A stretch of DNA of 43,389 nt from Candidatus Moranbacteria bacterium RIFOXYA12_FULL_35_19 (GTDB lineage Bacteria; Patescibacteriota; Minisyncoccia; Moranbacterales; UBA2206). Shown here in pieces: positions 2,550 to 43,389 of this stretch. Numbering within the stretch: position 1 is the first letter of the stretch; every line of letters begins with the position of its first letter. The stretch lies in the NCBI GenBank assembly GCA_001784805.1, contig MFSE01000012.1, positions 1 to 43,389 of the forward strand. The letters run 5' to 3'. The position numbers and the translations under genes are program-made. Under the pieces are notes generated by a model that was not told the origin of the DNA, searched no databases, and saw nothing but the letters and a program-made list of their open reading frames with translations.

Positions 2550-4700
2550 ATGGAACAAAAAAAATGGTCTCTCCAAATCGGAGGACGGATTTTGGAAATC
2601 GAAACTGGTCTTTTGGCCGGTCAAGCCAATGGAGCAGTAACTGCTCGCTATGGCGAAACAATCGTTCTTGCGACAGCCGTGATGAGTAAATCCGCTTCAA
2701 AAATAAGCGGGTATTTTCCGTTGATGGTGGATTTTGAAGAAAGATATTACGCCGCCGGAAAAATAAAAGGCTCTAGATTTATCAAACGCGAAGGTCGTCC
2801 AAGTGACGACGCAATTCTGTCTGGTCGCGCCGTGGATAGAACAGTCCGACCACTTTTCAACGCTAGAATGCGAAATGATGTGCAAGTAGTTTGCACTGTT
2901 CTTTCCTATGACGGAGAAAATGATCCAGATGTAGTAGCCATCATCGCTGCCTCGGCCGCTCTTTCCATTTCTAACATTCCTTGGAATGGACCCGTAAGCG
3001 CTGTTCGAGTCGGAAAAGTTGGACCCGCCTCGACTCGCGGAGACGCTTCGTCGACGCGAGGCGGGGAACTAATTTTAAATCCAGTTAATGGAGAAGTTAC
3101 CGACGGATCGCTGGATCTTTTAGTTAGTGGAACGCAAGATAAAATAAATATGATCGAATGCGCTTCCAAAGAAGTTCCAGAAATCGAAATGCTTGAAGCC
3201 ATGAAATTCGCTCAAGAAGCCATCAAAAAAATTGCCGAGTTTATTTCGGAAATCCAAAAAGAAATTGGCAAAGAAAAATCGGCGCCAGCTTTGGTTCAAG
3301 GCACAGAGGAATTTGAAAATAAAATCAAAGAACTTTTGCTTTCCGAAGGTTTAGCGGAAGCGCTGTATGATAAAGATAAAAAAGTTATCGAGGAAAAAAC
3401 CAAAATTATCAGCGAAAAAATTTCTGCCTTCATTAAAGAAAATTATCCAAACGAAGTTGATAAACTCAAAGAGGTAGCCGATATTGTTTCTGAAGAAGTG
3501 TCTGATGAGATCGTACATAAAAATATTTTAGAAAAAGAAATGCGACCAGACGGCCGAAAACTCGATGAAATTCGCCACATTGAATGTAAAGTTGGAATTT
3601 TGCCAAGAACTCACGGCACTGGACTTTTCACTCGCGGAGAAACTCAAGCTCTCACAGTAACGACTCTTGGCGCACCAGGAGACGAACAAATTATTGACAC
3701 AATGGAAGTGGATATGAAAAAAAGATATATTCATTATTACAATTTCCCTCCATTTTCCGTGGGCGAAGTGCGACCAATGCGTGGCCCAGGAAGACGAGAA
3801 ATCGGACACGGCGCACTCGCGGAAAAAGCCTTGGTGCCAGTGCTTCCTTCCAAGGAAGAATTTCCTTACACAATTTTACTTATGAGTGAAGTGCTTTCTT
3901 CCAATGGTTCTTCTTCAATGGCCTCCACTTGTGGCTCTACTCTTTCTCTTATGAATGCGGGAGTACCAATCAAGCGCCCTGTTTCTGGAATTGCGATGGG
4001 TATTATCGTAGATCAAGAATCAAAAAATACAAAATTTAAAGTTCTAACTGATATTCAAGGACTAGAAGATCATTATGGCGATATGGATTTCAAAGCGGCT
4101 GGCACAGAAAAAGGCATCACTGCTTTGCAAATGGATGTGAAGCTAGACGGCGTAACAATTGAAATGTTAGAAGCCGTTCTCAAGCAATCGCAAAAAAATC
4201 GGATGGAAATTTTAGAGAAAATTACGGCAACCATTGCTGTTCCAAATCCGGAAATGTCACAATATGCGCCACGCATTATCGTTATGCATATCAATCCGGA
4301 AAAAATTAGAAATGTTATTGGTACGGGCGGAAAAATAATCAATGAAATTATTGATGAAACCGGCGTAGAAATCGACATCGAAGATGACGGCTCCGTCTTC
4401 ATCACTTCGACTGACAAACAATCGGCGGAGAAAGCGAAAGAATGGATCAATAACCTCACTCGCGAAGTCAAAGCGGGAGAAATTTTCCAAGCCAAAGTTG
4501 TGAAAATTATGGCTTTCGGCGCTTTCGTCGAACTTCTCCCAGGACAAGACGGTTTGGTCCATGTATCGGAAATTGCCGATCGCCGAATTGAAAAAGTGGA
4601 AGATGTCCTCAAAATTGGGGATATGGTGGCAGTCAAAGTCAAAGAAATCGATTCCCAAGGACGAATCAATCTCACTATGCGAGGATTAGAAAAGAAATAA
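2550..4700 (+). CDS. pnp: Polyribonucleotide nucleotidyltransferase
   Basis: Two RNase PH domains (MRPDGRKLDEIRHIECKVGILPRTHGTGLFTRGETQALTVTTLG), KH (IRNVIGTGGKIINEII) and S1 domains; linked to rpsO. Confidence 0.97.
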   Translation: MEQKKWSLQIGGRILEIETGLLAGQANGAVTARYGETIVLATAVMSKSASKISGYFPLMVDFEERYYAAGKIKGSRFIKREGRPSDDAILSGRAVDRTVRPLFNARMRNDVQVVCTVLSYDGENDPDVVAIIAASAALSISNIPWNGPVSAVRVGKVGPASTRGDASSTRGGELILNPVNGEVTDGSLDLLVSGTQDKINMIECASKEVPEIEMLEAMKFAQEAIKKIAEFISEIQKEIGKEKSAPALVQGTEEFENKIKELLLSEGLAEALYDKDKKVIEEKTKIISEKISAFIKENYPNEVDKLKEVADIVSEEVSDEIVHKNILEKEMRPDGRKLDEIRHIECKVGILPRTHGTGLFTRGETQALTVTTLGAPGDEQIIDTMEVDMKKRYIHYYNFPPFSVGEVRPMRGPGRREIGHGALAEKALVPVLPSKEEFPYTILLMSEVLSSNGSSSMASTCGSTLSLMNAGVPIKRPVSGIAMGIIVDQESKNTKFKVLTDIQGLEDHYGDMDFKAAGTEKGITALQMDVKLDGVTIEMLEAVLKQSQKNRMEILEKITATIAVPNPEMSQYAPRIIVMHINPEKIRNVIGTGGKIINEIIDETGVEIDIEDDGSVFITSTDKQSAEKAKEWINNLTREVKAGEIFQAKVVKIMAFGAFVELLPGQDGLVHVSEIADRRIEKVEDVLKIGDMVAVKVKEIDSQGRINLTMRGLEKK
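3024..3065 (+). repeat. In-frame 42-bp palindromic insertion inside pnp
   Basis: CCCGCCTCGactcgcggagacgcttcgtcgacgCGAGGCGGG; encodes PASTRGDASSTRGG between VRVGKVG and ELILNP. Confidence 0.75.
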
Positions 4701-9792: not shown

Positions 9793-10308
9793 ATGAAAAT
9801 GCAAAAAAGTAAAATTCTATATTTATTATCCTTTCTGGTCTTAATTATTCTTGATCAACTTTCAAAATATATCGTCCGCTCCAGTGGCGGATTTTATATT
9901 TGCAACGCCAATCTTGCTTTTGGATTAAAAGTACCTCCTGCTGTTTTTTATGTTTTATGGATAATAATTATTCTTTCTTTGATAACTTTTATTGCCAAAA
10001 GTAATTTGAAAATAGTAACTAGCCCGCCTGCCGGCGAGGCAGGTATTTTGGATAAAAATTCTAGCATTTCCCTAATTACAAATTACAAATTACTAATTAC
10101 AAAGGAATTTTCTCTACTTTTGATTTTTTCTGGTGCAATTTCCAATATTATCGATCGTTTATTTTTCGGTTGCGTCATTGATTTCATCGATCTCAAATTC
10201 TGGCCGGTGTTTAATTTAGCCGATATTTATATTACAATAGGAGTAGTCATATCAATAATCAGAACCACTGATTTTCACATGAAATCACATGATTCCACTG
10301 AATTTTAA
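9793..10308 (+). CDS. lspA: Signal peptidase II, carrying palindromic-repeat-encoded segments
   Basis: LDQLSKYIV ... AISNIIDRLFFGCVIDFIDLKF..WPVFNLADIYITIGV; unusual SPPAGEAG/LITNYKLLITK loop and repeat-derived C-terminus. Confidence 0.9.
   Translation: MKMQKSKILYLLSFLVLIILDQLSKYIVRSSGGFYICNANLAFGLKVPPAVFYVLWIIIILSLITFIAKSNLKIVTSPPAGEAGILDKNSSISLITNYKLLITKEFSLLLIFSGAISNIIDRLFFGCVIDFIDLKFWPVFNLADIYITIGVVISIIRTTDFHMKSHDSTEF
10023..10043. repeat. GC palindrome family B, in frame in lspA
   Basis: CCCGCCTGCCGGCGAGGCAGG; copies at 13134, 34235, 35111, 37615. Confidence 0.8.
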
Positions 10309-12926: not shown

Positions 12927-13796
12927 ATGCCAACAAAATTAGGACAAAATTTTTTACGCGATAAAGAAGTTTTGGAAAAAATAATTGAATCAGCTGATTT
13001 AAAAGCGGACGATTTTGTGATTGAGATTGGACCGGGAGAAGGAGTGCTCACAGAAAAATTAATTGAAAATGCTGGAAAAGTCTTGGCTATTGAGATTGAT
13101 TCTAATTTAGCCTCTGCACTAGATTCCCGCTTTCCTGCCTCACCGGCAGGCGGGCGCGGGAATGACAAGGTTAGTATAATTACTGGGGATATCTTAAAAA
13201 TAAATTTGCCAGAAATATTGCGTGGACATTTGATGTCCATTATGGACATCAAATGTCCCTATGCTTATAAAGTCGTGGCTAACATTCCCTACTACATCAC
13301 TTCGCCGATTATTCAACTATTTTTGGAAACAAAATTTCCGCCAAGTGAAATGATTTTGATGGTGCAAAAAGAAGTGGCCGAGCGGATTTGTGCACCCCAA
13401 GGAAAAATGAGCATTTTGGCTGTGAGCGTGCAATTTTATGCTAATTCAGAACTTCTTTTTTATGTGGACAAAAAAAGTTTTTTTCCGATACCGGAAGTGG
13501 ATAGTGCAGTGATAAAAATTACACCGTTTCAACCCGCCACCTCATCCCCAGCCCTTCTCCTTAGTAAGGAGAAGGGGGTTAAGGATTTTTTCAGAATTGT
13601 TAAGGCGGGATTTTCGGCTAAAAGAAAAATACTGGTCAACAATCTTTCCCATAGTTTAAAGCTCGAAAAATATGAAGTTGAGGAAAAATTAAAAAAAGCC
13701 GGAATTGGTCCGACTCAAAGAGCGCAAGAATTGTCAGTTGAAGATTGGAAGAAACTCTCTTTGTCATTCCCGCACAAGCGGGAATCTAGTGAATAA
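12927..13796 (+). CDS. rsmA: 16S rRNA dimethyladenosine transferase with several palindromic insertions
   Basis: KLGQNFLRDKEVLEKI, VIEIGPGEGVLTEKL, VVANIPYYITSPIIQLFL, VDSAVIKITPF. Confidence 0.93.
   Translation: MPTKLGQNFLRDKEVLEKIIESADLKADDFVIEIGPGEGVLTEKLIENAGKVLAIEIDSNLASALDSRFPASPAGGRGNDKVSIITGDILKINLPEILRGHLMSIMDIKCPYAYKVVANIPYYITSPIIQLFLETKFPPSEMILMVQKEVAERICAPQGKMSILAVSVQFYANSELLFYVDKKSFFPIPEVDSAVIKITPFQPATSSPALLLSKEKGVKDFFRIVKAGFSAKRKILVNNLSHSLKLEKYEVEEKLKKAGIGPTQRAQELSVEDWKKLSLSFPHKRESSE
13117..13167. repeat. REP-like palindrome family A, in frame in rsmA, with family-B palindrome in its loop
   Basis: CACTAGATTCCCGC[tttCCTGCCTCACCGGCAGGCGGGc]GCGGGAATGACA. Confidence 0.8.
13224..13258. 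repeat. 35-bp double-hairpin palindrome family H, in frame in rsmA
   Basis: GGACATTTGATGTCC-ATTAT-GGACATCAAATGTCC. Confidence 0.85.
13544..13585. repeat. Palindromic insertion in rsmA
   Basis: CAGCCCTTCTCCTTAgTAAGGAGAAGGGGGTT; encodes SSPALLLSKEKGV. Confidence 0.7.
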
Positions 13797-13870
13797 GCTT
13801 TATAAAATGTTTGAGTCTTTGTAATAAATTAAACCTTGAAACTGGATTCCCGTTTTCACGGGAATGACAA
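13761..13870. repeat. Paired inverted family A elements (REPIN-like), overlapping the rsmA 3' end
   Basis: TGTCATTCCCGCacaaGCGGGAATCTAGTGA ... ACTGGATTCCCGttttcaCGGGAATGACA. Confidence 0.85.
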
Positions 13871-13875
13871 AAATA

Positions 13876-15507
13876 TCAGAAAAATAATATTTTCACCATC
13901 ACCAATCCATAAACAAAAATAATTCCCAAAACCGGCCAAAATATCAGGCGCGGTTTTATTTTTAGTGAAGCCACAGAGAGAAATGCTAGTCCGCCAAGAA
14001 ACATTGCCCACCAAAAAAGTTTCAGTTCATTCAAAAAGAAAACACTGGCTATAAAAGAAATGAAAATTCCCGAAGCTACAATCAGGCGAGCTTTTTTTTC
14101 TCCAAAAATAACTGGGATTGTCCAAATATTATCTTTTTTATCGCCGGCGATATCCTTGAAATCCTTGATTGATAAAGAAATTGTTCCCACAATCAGCATT
14201 AGAAAAATAATTCTCGGCGACAAAGTATGGAAAGTTTGATTATCCGACATCAAAATATAGCCAAGAAATAAAATTAGAAGCAAAGCAAAAGAGCTGATAA
14301 AAGTGGCTATCAGCGGAAATTTTTTCAACCGGAACGGCTGGGCGGAATAAACCCAAGCAACCACTTGATAGGTGATAAGTAGTACAGCAAAAGGAAAACC
14401 AATTGAAATTCCTCCTAAAATTGAAAGAATAAAACAAGCCCAACCAAAGTTCGCATATTCTTCTCGACTGAAAATTCCTTGCTGAAGCGGACGCTCGGGA
14501 TTGGAAATTGCGTCAATCGCAAAATCATTAAGATCATTGACCACCACCGAAGCTTTCCACGCCAGCCAAACACTAATAAATAAAACAGCTACTGCCAAAA
14601 GAGAAAATAAATCCAATTTAAAATTTTGCTGATAATTCCAAGCCCCCACCGCTAACCCGATAAAAAGCAATCCGCTATGGTAAAAAAGCTGGGGATAGCG
14701 AAAATTTTTGACCACGGCGATAAACTTTTTCTTATCCATCCAGTAAAATAAAATCGCCAACAAACTTACCAGTGCAATATAATAGATAAAATCCAACCGA
14801 TAAGCTACCGCGTATTTGATATTTTGAAAATCTATCCCTGCCATCTTATCCAACGAACCAAAAAATTCAAAAATTTCAAAAGCTTTTATGTCTAAAAATT
14901 TTTTTGTCCCAAAAATAAAATTATAAAGATAATAAAAAAAGGAAGGAAAAGCGCCGAGAAAAAATAAAATGGAATAAACTGCAAAAGCTGTGAATATGGA
15001 TTTGAGAAAATTTTTCGTTCGAAACCAAACTAGAAAAAATAGCACCGCGACAGTGGCGACAAAAATAATTTTTGTACCAAAATAAACAATCGCACTGGGC
15101 AAATGTCCGAAAACCGTGGCATATTGCCAAAGCAGATCTCGCGGAGCGCTGAAAAGATAAAAACTCCAATAAGCTTCTCCGCCCGTTTTTATCATATCAA
15201 TTAGCGGAGGAAAAGTCAGAAAAAGCAAAGAATAAATCAGCACGCCGGAAAGTTTCTGGGGATTTTCTTTGAGAATTGCGCTCAAAAAGAGCCATATTAG
15301 CAATATCGCTAAAGAAAAAAAGTAAAAATTATGGATATATTCCACCACCACTTCATAAGGCGCTAGCGGTTTGGCCAAGGCTAAAAATTGTTCAGTAAAA
15401 CAGCGGAAAAAAATCATTCCCAAAAACCCCAGCGTCCAAACGGAAAGACCGGCCCCCTTTTCCCCCAGCTTAATAAAGAAATTTTCCAGTTTATTCATAA
15501 TTCCCAT
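13876..15507 (-). CDS. UbiA-family prenyltransferase-like multi-TM protein
   Basis: NDLNDFAIDAISNPERPLQQG and KDFKDIAGDKKDNIWTIPVIFG motifs, multiple TM helices. Confidence 0.8.
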   Translation of the reverse strand: MGIMNKLENFFIKLGEKGAGLSVWTLGFLGMIFFRCFTEQFLALAKPLAPYEVVVEYIHNFYFFSLAILLIWLFLSAILKENPQKLSGVLIYSLLFLTFPPLIDMIKTGGEAYWSFYLFSAPRDLLWQYATVFGHLPSAIVYFGTKIIFVATVAVLFFLVWFRTKNFLKSIFTAFAVYSILFFLGAFPSFFYYLYNFIFGTKKFLDIKAFEIFEFFGSLDKMAGIDFQNIKYAVAYRLDFIYYIALVSLLAILFYWMDKKKFIAVVKNFRYPQLFYHSGLLFIGLAVGAWNYQQNFKLDLFSLLAVAVLFISVWLAWKASVVVNDLNDFAIDAISNPERPLQQGIFSREEYANFGWACFILSILGGISIGFPFAVLLITYQVVAWVYSAQPFRLKKFPLIATFISSFALLLILFLGYILMSDNQTFHTLSPRIIFLMLIVGTISLSIKDFKDIAGDKKDNIWTIPVIFGEKKARLIVASGIFISFIASVFFLNELKLFWWAMFLGGLAFLSVASLKIKPRLIFWPVLGIIFVYGLVMVKILFF

Positions 15508-15552
15508 CTAGTCTAGCAAAAAAATTTGGAAAAGTACATCCCTCCACTTTTT

Positions 15553-15587
15553 GGAGGCTCAACCTCCATTATGGAGGTTGAGCCTCC
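15553..15587. repeat. Family H double-hairpin palindrome
   Basis: GGAGGCTCAACCTCC-ATTAT-GGAGGTTGAGCCTCC. Confidence 0.85.
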
Positions 15588-15598
15588 AGCCTTAGGGA

Positions 15599-16803: not shown

Positions 16804-17718
16804 ATGAATTTTAATAAAAATAAAAATTATCTTCTGAAAAAAATATTTCTAACTGTTTTTTTGCTGGTATTTTTTTGTTTTTCTGGCGCTCCCAAAGCTC
16901 AAGCTGCTTGGATGGTAGGGATTGAATCAGTCATCCAAACAGGTCTACTTGAAGTTATGCAAATGATTAAAAGTCTTTTGGTCGGCACTATGAAACAGCA
17001 AGCTGTCAATATGCTCAATTCTCAAATTGACAACCTAGCCGGCCAAGGCAATGACGGCCAGCCGGTGTTCATCACTGATTGGGAAGATTATCTGATCAAT
17101 GAGCCAATGGACCAAACCAACATCTATATGCAAGATTATGTGAGTCAAATGACGCGCGGAAAAAATACTTATTCTGGCTATTCTACGGAAGGTTTCACCG
17201 GTCCATCAAATTATTCCGCTGATCTAAGTCAATCTGTCAAACCGCTAAGCCGTGAGGATGTTCCCCAAATTACTTATGAAGGCGACCCATCGCAAATGCT
17301 TGACAGCGGAAATTTGAAAAATATGGAACTTTATCTTTCCGGCGTAAATAACCCGTGGGCTTTCGATATAGCCGTTCAATCCAAACAACAACAAGTTTTT
17401 GAGAACAAAAAATTTGAAGCTCAAAGCAAAGGCCTCGCCAATGAAGGTTTTCCGGGTACAGAAACCAGCCCTGGTATTTTAATCAAAGAAACAATGGCCA
17501 ATGCGCAAAAAATACCAAATGATATTTTAGCTTCCGCTTCCAGTATTCCCGAAGTGATTTCTTCTCTTGTTTCCCAAATGATCAGCCGTTCCATCACGCA
17601 AGGATTCTCCAGTGTCCAACGATCAATCTCCAAAGATTCCTCCTCCCAAAGTCGTTACAATTCCAGCGTCAACAGCGCCATCGAATCCGACGGCCCAGGA
17701 GCGAGATTTGGCAACTAG
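16804..17718 (+). CDS. Secreted hypothetical protein at the head of the T4SS-like cluster
   Basis: Signal peptide (FLTVFLLVFFCFSGAPKAQAA); adjacent to VirB6/PrgI/VirB4-like genes. Confidence 0.6.
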   Translation: MNFNKNKNYLLKKIFLTVFLLVFFCFSGAPKAQAAWMVGIESVIQTGLLEVMQMIKSLLVGTMKQQAVNMLNSQIDNLAGQGNDGQPVFITDWEDYLINEPMDQTNIYMQDYVSQMTRGKNTYSGYSTEGFTGPSNYSADLSQSVKPLSREDVPQITYEGDPSQMLDSGNLKNMELYLSGVNNPWAFDIAVQSKQQQVFENKKFEAQSKGLANEGFPGTETSPGILIKETMANAQKIPNDILASASSIPEVISSLVSQMISRSITQGFSSVQRSISKDSSSQSRYNSSVNSAIESDGPGARFGN

Positions 17719-17795
17719 AAAAAATTCCAATTTACAATTATCAATTTACAATTTTCAATGAATTTTCAAGTCAAAAATTTTCAAACAAACCACCG

Positions 17796-18154
17796 TGTCA
17801 TTCCCGCGTAGGCGGGAATCTAGTGAAAAGACTAAATGAAAAATTATTATCCCTACATTTTAGCCAGTAAAAAAAACGGTACGCTCTATATCGGAATAAC
17901 CTCAAATTTAATAAAAAGAATTCGGGAACATAAAACCGGTGTAATCAAGGGATTTACTCAAAAATATAATGTAAAAAGATTAGTATATTATGAACAAACA
18001 GAAGATATTAATTCAGCTATAGCTAGAGAAAAAGCATTAAAGAAGTGGAAAAGAGATTGGAAAATACAACTCATCGAAAAAGAAAATCCTAATTGGGAAG
18101 ATTTGTATTTTAAGATAATTTTGTGACTAGATTCCTGCTTTCGCAGGAATGACA
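17796..18154 (+). mobile_element. Candidate GIY-YIG mobile element bounded by 31-bp inverted palindromic ends
   Basis: Left TGTCATTCCCGCGTAGGCGGGAATCTAGTGA; right (reverse complement) TGTCATTCCTGCGAAAGCAGGAATCTAGTCA. Confidence 0.65.
17836..18126 (+). CDS. GIY-YIG nuclease family protein
   Basis: YYPYILASKKNGTLYIGITSNLIKRIREHKTG...KRLVYYEQTEDINSAIAREKALKKWKRDWKIQLIEKENPNWEDLY. Confidence 0.92.
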   Translation: MKNYYPYILASKKNGTLYIGITSNLIKRIREHKTGVIKGFTQKYNVKRLVYYEQTEDINSAIAREKALKKWKRDWKIQLIEKENPNWEDLYFKIIL

Positions 18155-18229
18155 AAGTAATTGAAAATAAAAAATTTGAATTTTGAATTTATTTGTTATT
18201 TGTAATTTTGGATTTGTAATTTAAATAAG

Positions 18230-20242
18230 ATGTTGGAAAAAGTAAAAAATAAAAAAATAATCAATCGTCGCAAACTTATCTTCACTATAGTTTTTATTTT
18301 GGTGTTTGCTTTTGGGTTTGGGAGAGAGGAGAAGGCGGAGGCAGCTGATGAATTAGGCCACTGTTTTACAAACACGGAAGAAGTATTTAATGGATCTGAA
18401 TCTTCTAGTTTTGAAACAATATGGGAAGAAAATAACATTACAGAAACTGATTGTACTACTAAATGTAATCAAAAAATAGTAGAAAACCCTGCAATAACAA
18501 CCTGCAGATGGAAATCTACATCCGCATCTTCTCTCACAGCAGGCAAAGTTATAGCCAGAAGTGGCAATTCTTGTACTTTCGATCAATGGGCATCTGGTGC
18601 TTTTATAAACTGCCTACTTCTTACCATTCTAAACATTATGGTTTCAATGCTTCAGCTTGCCACTTCCCTTTTTGAATGGATAATGGCTCCGGAAAACATA
18701 ACTTCCGTTATTGGCAACGATGTGATTTATTCTGCTTGGGGGACTGTGCGAGATGTGCTCAATGTTTCCTTTATTATGTTTTTACTTTTTTCCGCTTTCG
18801 CCACTGTTTTTCAGGTAGACAAATACAGCTACAAAAAAACCCTCCTCACTTTGGTAATTATGGCGCTTTTAGTCAATTTCAGTTTTCCTATTTCTCGTTT
18901 CATTATCGATGTTTCCAATATGATGATGTATTATTTTGCCAGTGCGCTGGGAATTGATGCAGGAAAAACAGTTATTGGATTTGCTGATGCAACAAACTTA
19001 CCAAACATTATTTATGGCGGAGGAATTGATAAAGCTAGCACGACTGCACTCTTTACCTCTGTTATATTTATTTTCATTTTCGCCGTCACTGTTTTGACAA
19101 TTACTGTTCTGTTTGTCATTCGCACCATCGCCTTGGCAATACTGATTATTTTTTCCTCTTTGGCCTTTGTTGGCACCGCCATTCCGCCACTTTCTTCCTA
19201 TGCCAGTGACTGGTGGAAGAAACTTTTCAGTTATGCTTTTTTTGGACCAGTGATGCTTTTTATGATCTATATAGCTTCAACATTAATGACTGCACTTGCA
19301 AGATCAGGCTTGGAACCTATGAAAAAAATTGCTGCTGGACAATCTAGCGACCCAGATTTTATCGCTTCTCTTTCTTTCTTTGTCATTCCCATCGTCATCC
19401 TCTGGCTCGGTCTCGGTGTCGCTCAATCAATGAGCATCGCCGGCGCCAGCATGGTCGTCGGCAAAGCACAAGGGTTTATGAAAGGGGCAGGGAAGTGGAC
19501 AGCAACGGCACCTTGGAAAGCAACGAAGATGGCCGCCAAACAAACTGGTGTTCCTGGCGCAATGAAACAACGATGGGATCAATATAAAAAAGAAAGTTTT
19601 TTTGGCTCAGAGAAACAAGCCCAGCGAGAAGCTAAGCGAGCAGCTTTCTTGGGCGTAAAAGGCGCAGAAGAAAAAGATATGCGAAGACGAGCAGAAGAAC
19701 ATAAGAAAAACTTCACAACTGATGCTGAATTGGAAACTCTAGCTTCTGGTGGAGATGCGGCTGCGGCATATAGATTAGCTGAAGATAAAAAAATGAAACA
19801 AGATACTTATGATAAGTTTGTTGCAAATGCCAAAGACAAAACTGGCTCTCTTAAAAAAGCTGTTAATAGTAAAGTAAAACAAAATAGAAATGATTTGGTC
19901 GCTATTAATAAATCGAATGATCCTGAAGAACTTACAAAAACATCCAATGTCAATGGTGCTACTGCCGGAGGCTATGGTGCTAATGTCGCTCAATATATCG
20001 CCGATCAACAAATGGGAACTTTATCAGCTGAGCAATGGAATGATCAAAATTGGACAGATATTGTTATGCCTCTACCGCCTGGTCCGCCACCTCCAACACC
20101 AGTTCAGATAGCTGATAGAAACAGAAAAATATTGGCCGCTCAAACTGCATGGACAGCATTAAAACCTAATGCTCAAGAAGAAGTCAGAAAAAGACTTTCC
20201 TCTAATAATGCTGCAGCATTAACTACTATAGGTATAGCATAA
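18230..20242 (+). CDS. VirB6/TrbL-like T4SS membrane protein
   Basis: Multi-TM core (TVLFVIRTIALAILIIFSSLAFVGTAIPPLSSYASDWWKKLFSYAFFGPVMLFMIY), long hydrophilic C-terminus. Confidence 0.7.
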   Translation: MLEKVKNKKIINRRKLIFTIVFILVFAFGFGREEKAEAADELGHCFTNTEEVFNGSESSSFETIWEENNITETDCTTKCNQKIVENPAITTCRWKSTSASSLTAGKVIARSGNSCTFDQWASGAFINCLLLTILNIMVSMLQLATSLFEWIMAPENITSVIGNDVIYSAWGTVRDVLNVSFIMFLLFSAFATVFQVDKYSYKKTLLTLVIMALLVNFSFPISRFIIDVSNMMMYYFASALGIDAGKTVIGFADATNLPNIIYGGGIDKASTTALFTSVIFIFIFAVTVLTITVLFVIRTIALAILIIFSSLAFVGTAIPPLSSYASDWWKKLFSYAFFGPVMLFMIYIASTLMTALARSGLEPMKKIAAGQSSDPDFIASLSFFVIPIVILWLGLGVAQSMSIAGASMVVGKAQGFMKGAGKWTATAPWKATKMAAKQTGVPGAMKQRWDQYKKESFFGSEKQAQREAKRAAFLGVKGAEEKDMRRRAEEHKKNFTTDAELETLASGGDAAAAYRLAEDKKMKQDTYDKFVANAKDKTGSLKKAVNSKVKQNRNDLVAINKSNDPEELTKTSNVNGATAGGYGANVAQYIADQQMGTLSAEQWNDQNWTDIVMPLPPGPPPPTPVQIADRNRKILAAQTAWTALKPNAQEEVRKRLSSNNAAALTTIGIA

Positions 20243-31686: not shown

Positions 31687-32865
31687 TTAGTTTTTTAACG
31701 CCAGAAAATTCAACCAAAAAATAATCGCCAGATCATTTTTGAAATAAGTCGTATCAAAAATTCCGTGAAGTAAAATAATCAGCATAATTCCTAAAGTTAT
31801 AAACAGAATTTCATTCGATTCTGTTTTTATTTTTACAAAAATATCCTTTAACCAAAAAAATACCAAACCCAAAAAACCAACCACGCCCAAAATTCCGCCA
31901 GAAAGCCAGAAAGTTAAATATAAATTATTTGGGTGTGGCACTGCCCATTCCAAATAAGGTGGGTAAAATTTCTGGTATTCCAAATAAGTTTTTTGGAAAT
32001 TTCCTGGACCAATACCAAAGATAAGATTATTTTCCAACATTTTTACTGAAGCTTTCCAAATCATCATTCGAGAAGATAAAGAAGATCGGGAATCAGCTGA
32101 TAATAAATCCGTCATTTTTTTGTTATTTAATTGGGATAAAAAAAGCATCCCAATAATAATCATCGCTAGCGCGATTTTTTTCAACTCAATTTTATTTTTT
32201 ATTAAGCTTAAAATTATACAACTCACTACCACAGAAAACCATCCCGCATAAGAATAAGTCAGATAAAAAGCGCCTAAAATAATTATCCAGCCAAAACCTA
32301 TGGTGTAATTTTTATTTTTTTCCACTTTAATTTGTTCTAGCGCAATGATAACCGCCGGCGCCAAATACATCGCCAGATAATTTGGCGAATTAAATATGCC
32401 GGCCAAACGACCGTCGTAAGTTAAAAAGCCTAGCCCATAATATCCTAGTGAAACAATAGCCACGCCAACTGCCGAAAAAAAATAAACCAAAAAAATATTC
32501 TTTATTTTTTCTTTGGGAATTATTTCCCCAACAAGAAAAAGAAAAATAATTGGCACTAAAAACCAGCCTTTTATTATTCCCCAAGATACTGTACTGTTGC
32601 CGGAAAAAAAAGTAGCCATTAAAATTCCCATAAACATTAGACTTGCCATTCCAAAATATTTTACGAAACCAAGGTTGAACCTTTGGTTAGCCAAAGGTTC
32701 AACCTTAGGATCCTTGTTGGAAAAAAACCACAGTAAAAAAATCCCCGCGATTATTATTTCCCAAGCATTGGTTGGTAAAAAACCAATTTTTATTCTGACT
32801 AAATACAGTGGAATGAGAAATATCGCTAAGTAAATTAGATTTTCTAATATTTTCCTATTTTTCAT
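31687..32865 (-). CDS. O-antigen ligase family-like polytopic protein
   Basis: Multi-TM; SRMMIWKASVKMLENNLIFGIGPGNFQKTYLEYQKF..VPHPNNLYL. Confidence 0.8.
   Translation of the reverse strand: MKNRKILENLIYLAIFLIPLYLVRIKIGFLPTNAWEIIIAGIFLLWFFSNKDPKVEPLANQRFNLGFVKYFGMASLMFMGILMATFFSGNSTVSWGIIKGWFLVPIIFLFLVGEIIPKEKIKNIFLVYFFSAVGVAIVSLGYYGLGFLTYDGRLAGIFNSPNYLAMYLAPAVIIALEQIKVEKNKNYTIGFGWIIILGAFYLTYSYAGWFSVVVSCIILSLIKNKIELKKIALAMIIIGMLFLSQLNNKKMTDLLSADSRSSLSSRMMIWKASVKMLENNLIFGIGPGNFQKTYLEYQKFYPPYLEWAVPHPNNLYLTFWLSGGILGVVGFLGLVFFWLKDIFVKIKTESNEILFITLGIMLIILLHGIFDTTYFKNDLAIIFWLNFLALKN
32669..32709. repeat. Family H-like double-hairpin palindrome in an O-antigen-ligase-like gene
   Basis: CCAAGGTTGAACCTTTGG-TTAG-CCAAAGGTTCAACCTTAGG; encodes PKVEPLANQRFNLG. 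Confidence 0.8.
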
Positions 32866-34105
32866 ATCTGGGATATAAATTAATAACAACAAGAAACAAT
32901 GACAGCACAATAGGGGAACACAGGCCGGTTTCCACTAATGAGTGAACGGAAAAAATAATCAAGCTCACAAAAAATCCGCTATAGATCATATCCTTTTTTG
33001 AAAAAATCCAAAAATTCCAAAGCGTTAGAAGCAAAATAAAAATCCAAACCAAACTGGTCATAATCCCTTCTTCAACCGCGATATCCAAATAAGTATTATG
33101 GGCATAAATTGGATTTCGATAATTTATCTTATCATCCACTTCCAAAGAAAAATTACCGATACCCGTTCCAAAAAAGGGTTTTTCTAAAATTATTTCTAAG
33201 GACTTTTGCCACATTTCAAGCCGTCCTATATTTGATCCTTCCGCTGAATCAAAACTGGAAACAAATCTCTGTGAAATTGGACCGGGTACAGTAAACATCA
33301 AAATAAAAAATATCATTCCGAAAAAAGTCGCCACTCTATGTTTCCACGCCATTCTTTTATAAAAAATAAGCAAAAAAATTGCCGATCCTAATGCGATTGC
33401 CACATACCCGCCTCGCGAGAAAGTCAAAATATTAGCGAAAAAAATAGCTACGAAAGAAAATACCCAGAGAAATTTTTCTTTCGAAATAAAAAACAAAATT
33501 ATCGGAAGCGGAAATATTATTCCTAAAAACATTGAGAAGGAATGCGGATTAGGAAAAGTTGCAATCGAGCGAAAATAATTATCTCCGGAAATACCCACAA
33601 ACAAACTGGGATATTTGGCTACCATTTGTGCTAAATTATCTCCCCAAAAAATCGGCCCAGCAAAATTCAAATAAAAATTCAAAATCTCTTCATGACTCCA
33701 AAAAAATTGACCAAGAAATTGTACAATTCCCAAAACCGCCACCAGAGCGCCTGATAAAACTAGGACTTTTAGCGTTTTTATAACTTTCTCTCTATCATTT
33801 AGAATATCTTTTACCACAAAATACAAGGGGAAAATAGAAAACAAATAGAGCAATTTCCTTGCTCCCCAAATATAATTTTGAGCAAAAAACAATGAAATAA
33901 AACTCAAAAAAAGAAAAAGAAGGATAGCCTTTGCCTGCACATCAAAAATTAATTTTTCTTTATTTTTTATCTTATTATAAATCCAGATAAAAAATAAGAC
34001 TAGAATAAAAATTCTTAGCGAAGCCAAATCAACCACCGCCGCCGGATTAAGCGCGATTTGAAATGGCAGATAAAAACATAAGAATAGAAATAAATTAAAT
34101 ATCAT
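32855..34105 (-). CDS. O-antigen ligase family-like polytopic protein
   Basis: Multi-TM; GRLEMWQKSLEIILEKPFFGTGIGNFSLEV..IYAHNTYLDIAVEEG. Confidence 0.82.
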   Translation of the reverse strand: MIFNLFLFLCFYLPFQIALNPAAVVDLASLRIFILVLFFIWIYNKIKNKEKLIFDVQAKAILLFLFLSFISLFFAQNYIWGARKLLYLFSIFPLYFVVKDILNDREKVIKTLKVLVLSGALVAVLGIVQFLGQFFWSHEEILNFYLNFAGPIFWGDNLAQMVAKYPSLFVGISGDNYFRSIATFPNPHSFSMFLGIIFPLPIILFFISKEKFLWVFSFVAIFFANILTFSRGGYVAIALGSAIFLLIFYKRMAWKHRVATFFGMIFFILMFTVPGPISQRFVSSFDSAEGSNIGRLEMWQKSLEIILEKPFFGTGIGNFSLEVDDKINYRNPIYAHNTYLDIAVEEGIMTSLVWIFILLLTLWNFWIFSKKDMIYSGFFVSLIIFSVHSLVETGLCSPIVLSLFLVVINLYPRYEK

Positions 34106-39609: not shown

Positions 39610-39727
39610 TTCATCCCCCACCACTTTTAGGTTTGGTTATTTTGATTAAATTAATTTAACCAATTAAATAGTTTAAGCTTATCTTTTTTACATAAAACAT
39701 TACAACCTAAAAGTGGTGGGGGATGAA
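39610..39727. repeat. Perfect 24-bp inverted repeat in the rpmH-dnaA intergenic region
   Basis: TTCATCCCCCACCACTTTTAGGTT (39610-39633) / AACCTAAAAGTGGTGGGGGATGAA (39704-39727). Confidence 0.9.
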
Positions 39728-42660: not shown

Positions 42661-43389
42661 ATGAAACATGAAACAAAAGAAATAATACACGATTTAATAA
42701 TTATTGGCGCGGGGCCGGCGGGGCTTAGTGCTTCGATTTATGCTTCACGGTATGGGATAAAACATAAAGTTGTTGGGGCGGTTTTGGGTGGGCAAATTAG
42801 TGAGACACATAAAATTGACAATTATCCTGGAATGGAGGATATGAGTGGATATGAATTTGGACAGCGTTGGGGGAAGCACGCCAAAAAATATGGAGTGGAA
42901 ATTATTCCGCAACTAGTTCAAAAAATTAAAAAAGAAAATGGAGGTTCAACCTCCATTATGGAGGTTGAGCCTCCATTTTTTGAAGTAGAATTAGCGAATA
43001 AAAATATTTTACAAGCACGAACAATTCTTTTAGCCACTGGAACAAAAAAAAGAAAACTCAATATTATTGGAGAAAAAGAATTTATTGGAAAGGGTGTGTC
43101 ATATTGTGCTACTTGTGATGGATTTTTTTATAAAAATAAAACTGTGGGTGTGATTGGGGGATCGGATAGTGCAGCGACTGCCACATTATACTTGGCTGAT
43201 TTAGCAGAAAAAGTTTATCTAATTTATCGCAAAAAAGAACTGCGCGCCGAACCTTTTTGGGTAAACTTAATTGAAAAAAATCCAAAAATAGAAGTATTAT
43301 ATGAAACAAATGTGGTGGAAATTTTAGGTGAGCAAAAATTGGAAAAAGTAAAACTCGATAAAGCTTATAATAATTCCAACGAATTAAAT
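42661..43389 (+). CDS. trxB: Thioredoxin reductase-like FAD/NAD(P) oxidoreductase (3'-truncated by window end)
   Basis: My translation: DLIIIGAGPAGLSASIYASRYGI..GGQI..IDNYPGME..LLATGTKKRKLNIIGEKEFIGKGVSYCATCDGFFYKNKTVGVIGGSDSAATATLYL; no stop before window end. Confidence 0.92.
   Translation, partial: MKHETKEIIHDLIIIGAGPAGLSASIYASRYGIKHKVVGAVLGGQISETHKIDNYPGMEDMSGYEFGQRWGKHAKKYGVEIIPQLVQKIKKENGGSTSIMEVEPPFFEVELANKNILQARTILLATGTKKRKLNIIGEKEFIGKGVSYCATCDGFFYKNKTVGVIGGSDSAATATLYLADLAEKVYLIYRKKELRAEPFWVNLIEKNPKIEVLYETNVVEILGEQKLEKVKLDKAYNNSNELN
42940..42974. repeat. Family H double-hairpin palindrome, in frame in trxB
   Basis: GGAGGTTCAACCTCC-ATTAT-GGAGGTTGAGCCTCC; encodes GGSTSIMEVEPP. Confidence 0.85.

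Follow-up and report, generated by a model that had tools for sequence, protein, structure and literature searches.

The rsmA (ksgA) gene of Candidatus Moranbacteria bacterium RIFOXYA12_FULL_35_19 (Patescibacteriota) lies in a 43,389-nucleotide stretch of contig MFSE01000012.1, which was analyzed as a whole and is called the window below, and it encodes a complete RsmA/KsgA bearing four repeat-derived segments, numbered (i) to (iv) along the gene. The segments fall into at least three repeat families, which are unrelated to one another and probably differ in their drivers. They are insertions, their families are dispersed, and the same loops are re-used by other repeat families in related species. 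We consider it probable (roughly 0.8) that dispersed repeats have hit rsmA repeatedly, with segment (ii) copied by a REP-associated tyrosine transposase (RAYT; REP, repetitive extragenic palindrome), segments (i) and (iv) linked to GIY-YIG nuclease genes and segment (iii) derived from a third family, and that copies lying in frame in loops survive. The source genome (G000, 0.99 Mb) was compared with six congeners in the search set (G001-G006), and all genome-wide repeat counts derive from pattern searches and selected stretches.

Repeat-derived segments in rsmA

The product of rsmA was assigned to KsgA by TIGR00755 (235 bits, cut-off 171) and to Pfam PF00398 (184 bits), and a fold search with its AlphaFold2 model returned the KsgA fold, with 6ift as the top PDB match (template modelling score 0.81). 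An initial annotation made from the DNA letters had proposed an rsmA with four repeat-derived in-frame segments, which these assignments and a check of the sequence confirmed, together with the perfect 35-bp palindrome of repeat family H in segment (ii) (17-bp arms, 1-nt centre). All four segments had also been described as palindromic; this holds for (ii), (iii) and (iv), which are perfect or near-perfect, and fails for (i), an imperfect 41-nt hairpin with no clean palindrome, in which a second hairpin (CCTGCC..GGCAGG) is nested within a hairpin of repeat family A. The longest palindrome arm in the gene reaches 17 nt versus at most 11 nt across 300 codon shuffles, and the rsmA palindromes far exceed chance. 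The unit of segment (ii) occurs 33 times and the 20-mer of segment (iv) 24 times in the genome, with 0 matches for reversed-pattern controls. Peptides encoded by the repeats include WTSNVHNGHSMS and SFPHK.

Each of the four segments is missing from most of 30 RsmA sequences from the same family (length about 260 amino acids, aa), and all four are therefore derived; judged from the seven congeneric genomes and the 30 family members, the ancestral RsmA was about 260 aa in length. No invariant RsmA position falls inside the inserts (0 of 64). In the AlphaFold2 model (mean predicted local distance difference test score, pLDDT, 84) the least certain stretches are residues 72-77, 106-111, 204-213 and 287-289, which sit within or against the four inserts, either between secondary-structure elements or in the tail. 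The view that the segments are insertions rather than ancestral parts of RsmA, placed between conserved blocks in surface loops, was thus upheld by both the alignment and the structural mapping. An assembly artefact at rsmA was considered unlikely, because inserts (ii) and (iv) recur at matching positions of rsmA in the independently assembled congener G001.

Family H repeats and RAYT genes

Segment (ii) is a doublet of about 36 nt resembling a REPIN (a hairpin-forming pair of inverted REPs), in which GGACATNNNATGTCC occurs twice in inverted orientation. Units of family H number 33/12/3/1/0/0/0 across the seven congeneric genomes, with 33 in G000 and 12 in G001, and most are paired with starts 20 nt apart, forming dispersed inverted doublets. 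The two H-rich genomes are the two that carry an H-bearing RAYT, and H is numerous only where its RAYT occurs. Nearly all H copies away from RAYTs lie in frame in core genes, although coding density is high and no gene enrichment is claimed. The hosts, named by homology and motif reading rather than by family search, include prmC-, hypE-, uvrA-, rnhB-, femAB-, murE-, dnaG-, tsaD-, pgk-, miaB-, recG-, rlmN- and comEC-like genes, so that in-frame insertion extends to 13 core genes in addition to rsmA and the RAYTs. In dnaG, uvrA and pgk a clean difference of 12 residues (36 bp) was seen relative to empty orthologs. Counted by gene, the three reading frames are used in a ratio of 12:4:0, and the third frame often runs into stops. 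A lone doublet away from RAYTs and any convincing gene is 34 nt long (L069/L079).

A Pfam search of G000 identified five Y1_Tnp (PF01797) genes, four of them of RAYT size. The RAYT genes on contigs C10 and C23 carry H units beside and inside the open reading frame (ORF), on both sides in the case of C23. The ortholog of the C10 gene in G001 (G001:C64) has H doublets in both corresponding positions, directly downstream of the stop codon and in frame within the ORF, with the centre TCG versus TTG in G000; the rsmA copies of H in the two genomes share the centre base with the RAYT copies of their own genome. The H-type RAYT protein of G001 is the same as that found in Candidatus Moranbacteria UBA2206 (L187). 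The C10 protein scored 26.8 bits with Pfam Y1_Tnp and had no match in NCBIfam, and a RAYT profile search of PDB sequences returned nothing; the RAYT structural model (pLDDT 88) gave 4er8, E. coli TnpA-REP with a REP hairpin, as the top PDB match (E 2.3e-5). The stretch encoded by H is a loop that follows helix 50-60 and precedes strand 77-84 in this model, and the RAYT examined has Y-x-x-x-N without the usual P.

The survey of RAYTs covered 78 Patescibacterial ORFs from named genomes. Of these, 65 contain a perfect palindrome whose arms reach 9 nt or more, compared with 6% of codon-shuffled genes. Palindromes were located just before the HUH motif in 47 genes, at the N-terminus in 25, after the catalytic Tyr in 23, and between HUH and Tyr in 5. 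The CTT(G/A)G foot occurs in 50 of 83 distinct internal palindrome cores. Palindromes differ among RAYT lineages, but the internal palindrome equals the one flanking the same gene: a 9-mer is common to the ORF and its own flanks in 60/78 cases, versus 3 for mismatched gene pairs. RAYTs thus bear their own repeat in their own ORF. This agreement, and the tracking of repeat copy number with the cognate RAYT, argue against the most serious alternative, namely that the palindromes were inserted like Rickettsia palindromic elements (RPEs) by another mechanism unrelated to RAYT or GIY-YIG genes, the RAYTs being just another permissive gene. The style is shared with RPEs (in frame, in many housekeeping genes, in loops; PMC10969869), and we regard this explanation as unlikely.

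A second REPIN family (AAGGTT..AACCTT, 36 nt) shows the same pattern as H; its cognate RAYT (G000:C6:31529-32197) bears it internally, and one of its copies lies in the window (Table 1). Loci with AAGGTTSAACCTTTGG number 7 in G000, 2 in G003 and 0 in the other five genomes. The more divergent Y1 genes had no GTAGAGACG repeat in their vicinity. Two side observations concern RAYTs and REPINs. The RAYT of G004 is present as two partial pieces (L041, G004:C8; L046, G004:C16), each near an identical palindrome, which is likely an assembly break at the repeat. An inverted doublet of TGGAGGCTCAACCTCCATTATGGAGGTTGAGCCTCCA, with the ATTAT spacer seen in H, occurs at 15552-15588 and 42939-42975, the second copy overlapping an ORF, and is probably one more REPIN family.

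Re-use of loops

Site (ii) of rsmA is occupied by the H palindrome in G000 and G001, by GTAGAGACG..CGTCTCTAC in G002, G003 and G006, and by a long HSERSE..AQDD hairpin in G005, and it lacks a palindrome in G004. At site (iii), CCCTTCTCC..GGAGAAGGG is present in G000 and G004 and TCCTCTCCC..GGGAGAGGA in G001, G002 and G003, with no repeat in G005 and G006. Segment (i) was not found in the six congeners; a related insert occupies the site in G030 (genus g17), and look-alikes were seen in G028, G029 and G013 in the alignment of 30 family members. The 3' end of rsmA bears an orthologous composite element in G001 and other inverted repeats at that place in G002-G006. Beyond rsmA, 46 orthologs have no H at an H site, and 21 of these bear a different dispersed repeat there; the repeat at the H site in murE of G003 is the palindrome of that genome's own RAYT. 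The best reading of these shared sites is that a small set of permissive loops is being refilled.

Since different repeat families fill identical loops among species, the encoded peptides look tolerated rather than selected. The initial annotation had allowed for selection of the inserted peptides, a suggestion not supported here, as sister species hold unrelated repeat peptides in matching loops. On that explanation the peptides would provide a loop or tail of use to RsmA and other core proteins, and the retention of (ii) and (iv) in frame in two species (G000 and G001) would be expected; against it stand the unrelated peptides, or nothing, found elsewhere, the different repeats in H-lacking orthologs, and the disorder of the segments in the model together with their lack of conserved residues, which make it very improbable. 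Equally improbable is the growth of palindromes de novo, without mobility, by template switching (quasi-palindrome correction) at short inverted repeats. Paired changes that leave the arms matched speak in its favour, one in rsmA (TTG/CAA in G000 versus TCG/CGA in G001) and three in the GTAGAGACG repeat of G002 versus G006, but it leaves unexplained the 33 dispersed near-identical copies, the RAYT link and the clean 36-bp differences; template switching may act as a secondary process that keeps the arms perfect. Least probable of all is a role of the repeats as RNA signals, either hairpin terminators or attenuators, that are translated by chance: they would form mRNA hairpins, but they lie mid-gene in core enzymes, keep the frame, and vary in occupant among species.

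Further observations were made at rsmA and its 3' neighbour. In the RsmA of G001 (L009), ERICA is followed by a further insert (SPRGITTENK..SIPRGR) that has CCCCGTGGAATA..TATTCCACGGGG at its boundaries and is not seen in the other aligned RsmA sequences. At 13876-15507 the gene shares 95% identity with that of G003 and 67% with that of G001, the corresponding values for the adjacent rsmA being 72% and 68%, and the break in identity lies near the family A element. These identities suggest a mosaic ancestry of 12927-15507, with recombination at repeats.

Family A repeats and GIY-YIG nuclease genes

Family A has the consensus ATTCCC-N8-GGGAAT, which segment (iv) matches exactly, while segment (i) has a longer centre; genome-wide, its copies are often paired 50-90 nt apart. 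Segment (iv) had been described as a family A copy supplying the C-terminus SFPHKRESSE. The C-terminus is as described; the copy proved to be the left end of a 108-bp composite element that supplies the stop codon as well. Of the two features of a miniature inverted-repeat element (MITE) of a classical insertion sequence, terminal inverted repeats and a target-site duplication, the family A composites have inverted ends; a duplication was not recognised by eye. A GIY-YIG nuclease gene in the window is bracketed by inverted family A ends, and this unit may represent an autonomous relative of the composite at the 3' end of rsmA. In the genus, 14 of 26 GIY-YIG genes have flanking inverted repeats scoring at least 12 within 80 nt, compared with 0 of 400 random placements and 8 of 189 small ORFs. 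Among the flanking repeats are family A and two further families, TGTCATCCTGA and TCATCCTGAG, peptides of which also occur inside genes. From this association we propose GIY-YIG elements as the putative source of segments (i) and (iv). No paper on a link between the ATTCCC repeat and GIY-YIG nucleases was found in the literature searched.

The intergenic spot at 17718-18230, compared with its syntenic loci (L021-L035), has a variable small gene as occupant: GIY-YIG in G000, PDDEXK_3 with ATTCGCATCGCT-type ends in G004 and G006, 23S_rRNA_IVP with TTTTCAATT-type ends in G003 (and in G002, by eye), and in G005 no GIY-YIG gene and little beyond a short gap. The spot thus looks like a hotspot for small genes that end in inverted repeats. 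Elsewhere in the window, the inverted pair TTCATCCCCCACCACTTTTAGG..CCTAAAAGTGGTGGGGGATGAA lies at 39610-39650 and 39687-39727, a similar repeat flanking a GIY-YIG gene of G002 (L277), and candidate repeat peptides were noted in two conserved genes, SPPAGEAGILDKNSSISLITNYKLLITK in an lspA-like gene (9793-10308) and ASTRGDASSTRGG in a pnp-like gene (2550-4700).

Table 1 Coordinates of rsmA, its repeat-derived segments and related features in the window
Feature	Position	Strand	Basis or remark
rsmA/ksgA, 289 aa, intact ORF	12927..13796	+	TIGR00755, PF00398, KsgA fold
Segment (i), family A hairpin ATTCCCGC..GCGGGAAT with nested CCTGCC/GGCAGG hairpin; peptide DSRFPASPAGGRGND	13123..13163	+	sequence inspection
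Segment (ii), family H REPIN-like doublet GGACATTTGATGTCC-ATTAT-GGACATCAAATGTCC; peptide GHLMSIMDIKCP	13224..13258	+	perfect palindrome
Segment (iii), CCCTTCTCCTTAGTAAGGAGAAGGG; peptide ALLLSKEKG	13552..13576	+	12-bp arms, 1-nt centre, 25 nt
Segment (iv), family A 20-mer, left end of 108-bp composite	13766..13785	+	8-bp arms, 4-nt loop
Composite family A element, 108 bp, inverted ends TGTCATTCCCG..CGGGAATGACA	13762..13869	+	right hairpin 13846-13865
GIY-YIG nuclease gene (17836-18126) together with the inverted family A ends on either side	17796..18154	+	PF01541, 58.8 bits
Second RAYT-linked REPIN AAGGTTGAACCTTTGGTTAGCCAAAGGTTCAACCTT, 36 nt, in frame in O-antigen-ligase-like ORF (31690-32934)	32671..32706	-	cognate RAYT

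Proposed mechanism of insertion

For segment (ii), the most likely route is the one proposed for REPs, in which an HUH transposase copies hairpins via single-stranded DNA. The probable copier of this segment is a single-strand transposase (HUH/Tyr) of the RAYT type, which would recognise the single-stranded hairpin and insert the 36-nt H unit. As the length of the unit is a multiple of 3 and one frame is free of stops, a copy would add 12 residues with no frameshift, and selection would retain only copies lying in frame in loops. Segments (i) and (iv) would stem from the repeats that also bracket the GIY-YIG nuclease gene in inverted orientation, and segment (iii) from a third repeat family. 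On this model RAYTs would move H, GIY-YIG elements would move family A, and the peptides would be merely tolerated.

Several points weigh against the repeated arrival of mobile repeats as set out here. Site (i) is replacement-like, with only about 7 net extra residues and no clean insertion, and no RAYT or GIY-YIG gene is linked to the repeat of segment (iii). In G000, H has a link to two of the four Y1 genes of RAYT size and none to the other two. Neither a duplicated target site nor a target motif was found. No mobility event within a species was seen. Finally, the H copies in rsmA of G000 and G001 may have been inherited or exchanged by recombination, rather than representing two insertions.

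Significance

Intragenic REPs, RPEs and RAYTs with internal REPs have already been published. New are a Patescibacterial RAYT branch with CTTGG-footed REPs, REPINs of coding length in core genes, the re-use of loops, and the GIY-YIG link. The inserts of rsmA come from at least two repeat systems, and core proteins are therefore edited by selfish repeats: a streamlined genome of about 1 Mb tolerates selfish peptides in core enzymes, and sister species refill identical loops differently. Coding palindromes, puzzling since the Rickettsia elements, are tied here to candidate enzymes in a second bacterial lineage, and the mechanism is therefore directly testable. The results also suggest that CTTGG-footed REPs form a superfamily and that the widespread ATTCCC repeat is linked to GIY-YIG nucleases.

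More tentatively, a guild of tiny mobile elements, comprising coding-length RAYT-REPINs, GIY-YIG elements with palindromic ends of the TGTCAT type and possibly PDDEXK_3 and 23S-IVP genes bearing inverted ends of their own, might be at work in Patescibacteria of this group, whose non-autonomous copies occupy in-frame niches and replace one another in the loops of essential proteins. If so, residence in essential genes would shield the elements from deletion in a streamlined genome, and the internal repeat of a RAYT would be a self-tag in its own coding sequence.

Comparison with known systems

The family H system resembles the REP/REPIN systems with RAYT (TnpA-REP) genes (Nunvar 2010, PMC2817692; Bertels and Rainey 2011, PMC3116915) in its short palindromes, inverted doublets and dispersed copies, in a cognate Y1 (HUH/Tyr) gene flanked by its own repeat, and in the 4er8 fold. 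Unlike classic REPs, which are extragenic and carry a GTAG tag, H is mostly intragenic, none of its doublet copies has a GTAG (or GTGG) foot, and CTT(G/A)G is the foot that prevails in RAYT-internal repeats. By the transposase, the flanking palindrome and the doublets, segment (ii) can be assigned to the RAYT/REPIN type, with the GTAG foot as the feature that fails.

REPs inside the transposase gene are known from TnpA-REP subclass 2.4 (Quentin 2018, PMC6006769), the taxon list of which does not name Patescibacteria. The idea that a RAYT with an internal REP is unprecedented was therefore dropped, and the Patescibacterial case is a variant rather than a first report. As in subclass 2.4, the REP lies in frame inside its own transposase gene, and the double-foot REP of that subclass resembles the GTAG..CTAC family of other congeners. 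The position differs: subclass 2.4 has the REP between HuH and Y, the least used place in the genes surveyed here.

Like RPEs and the intragenic GTAG/CGTC REPs, which include RPE-4 and RPE-6 as CGTC REPs (Di Nocera 2013, PMC3733652), the repeats form in-frame palindromes in housekeeping and repair genes, uvrA included. They differ from the CGTC repeats, which have no linked transposase, in sequence, in the presence of a cognate RAYT and in a fixed coding length of about 36 nt. RPEs measure about 150 bp (PMC10969869), a length not reached by segment (ii) (about 36 nt), segment (i) (41 nt), segment (iii) (25 nt) or the 3' composite (108 bp). The likeness to RPEs drawn by the initial annotation therefore stands for the behaviour and not for a single phenomenon, as at least three families with different likely drivers are involved. 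The system is placed neither in subclass 2.4, given the position of the internal REP, nor among the RPE families, given its length.

The 20-mer consensus of family A is identical to that of the dRS3 repeats of Neisseria, ATTCCC(N8)GGGAAT, which number about 700 copies in N. meningitidis and form part of intergenic arrays (PMC3898611). Unlike dRS3, family A has few copies (24), which are often paired and also intragenic, and it brackets a GIY-YIG gene in the window.
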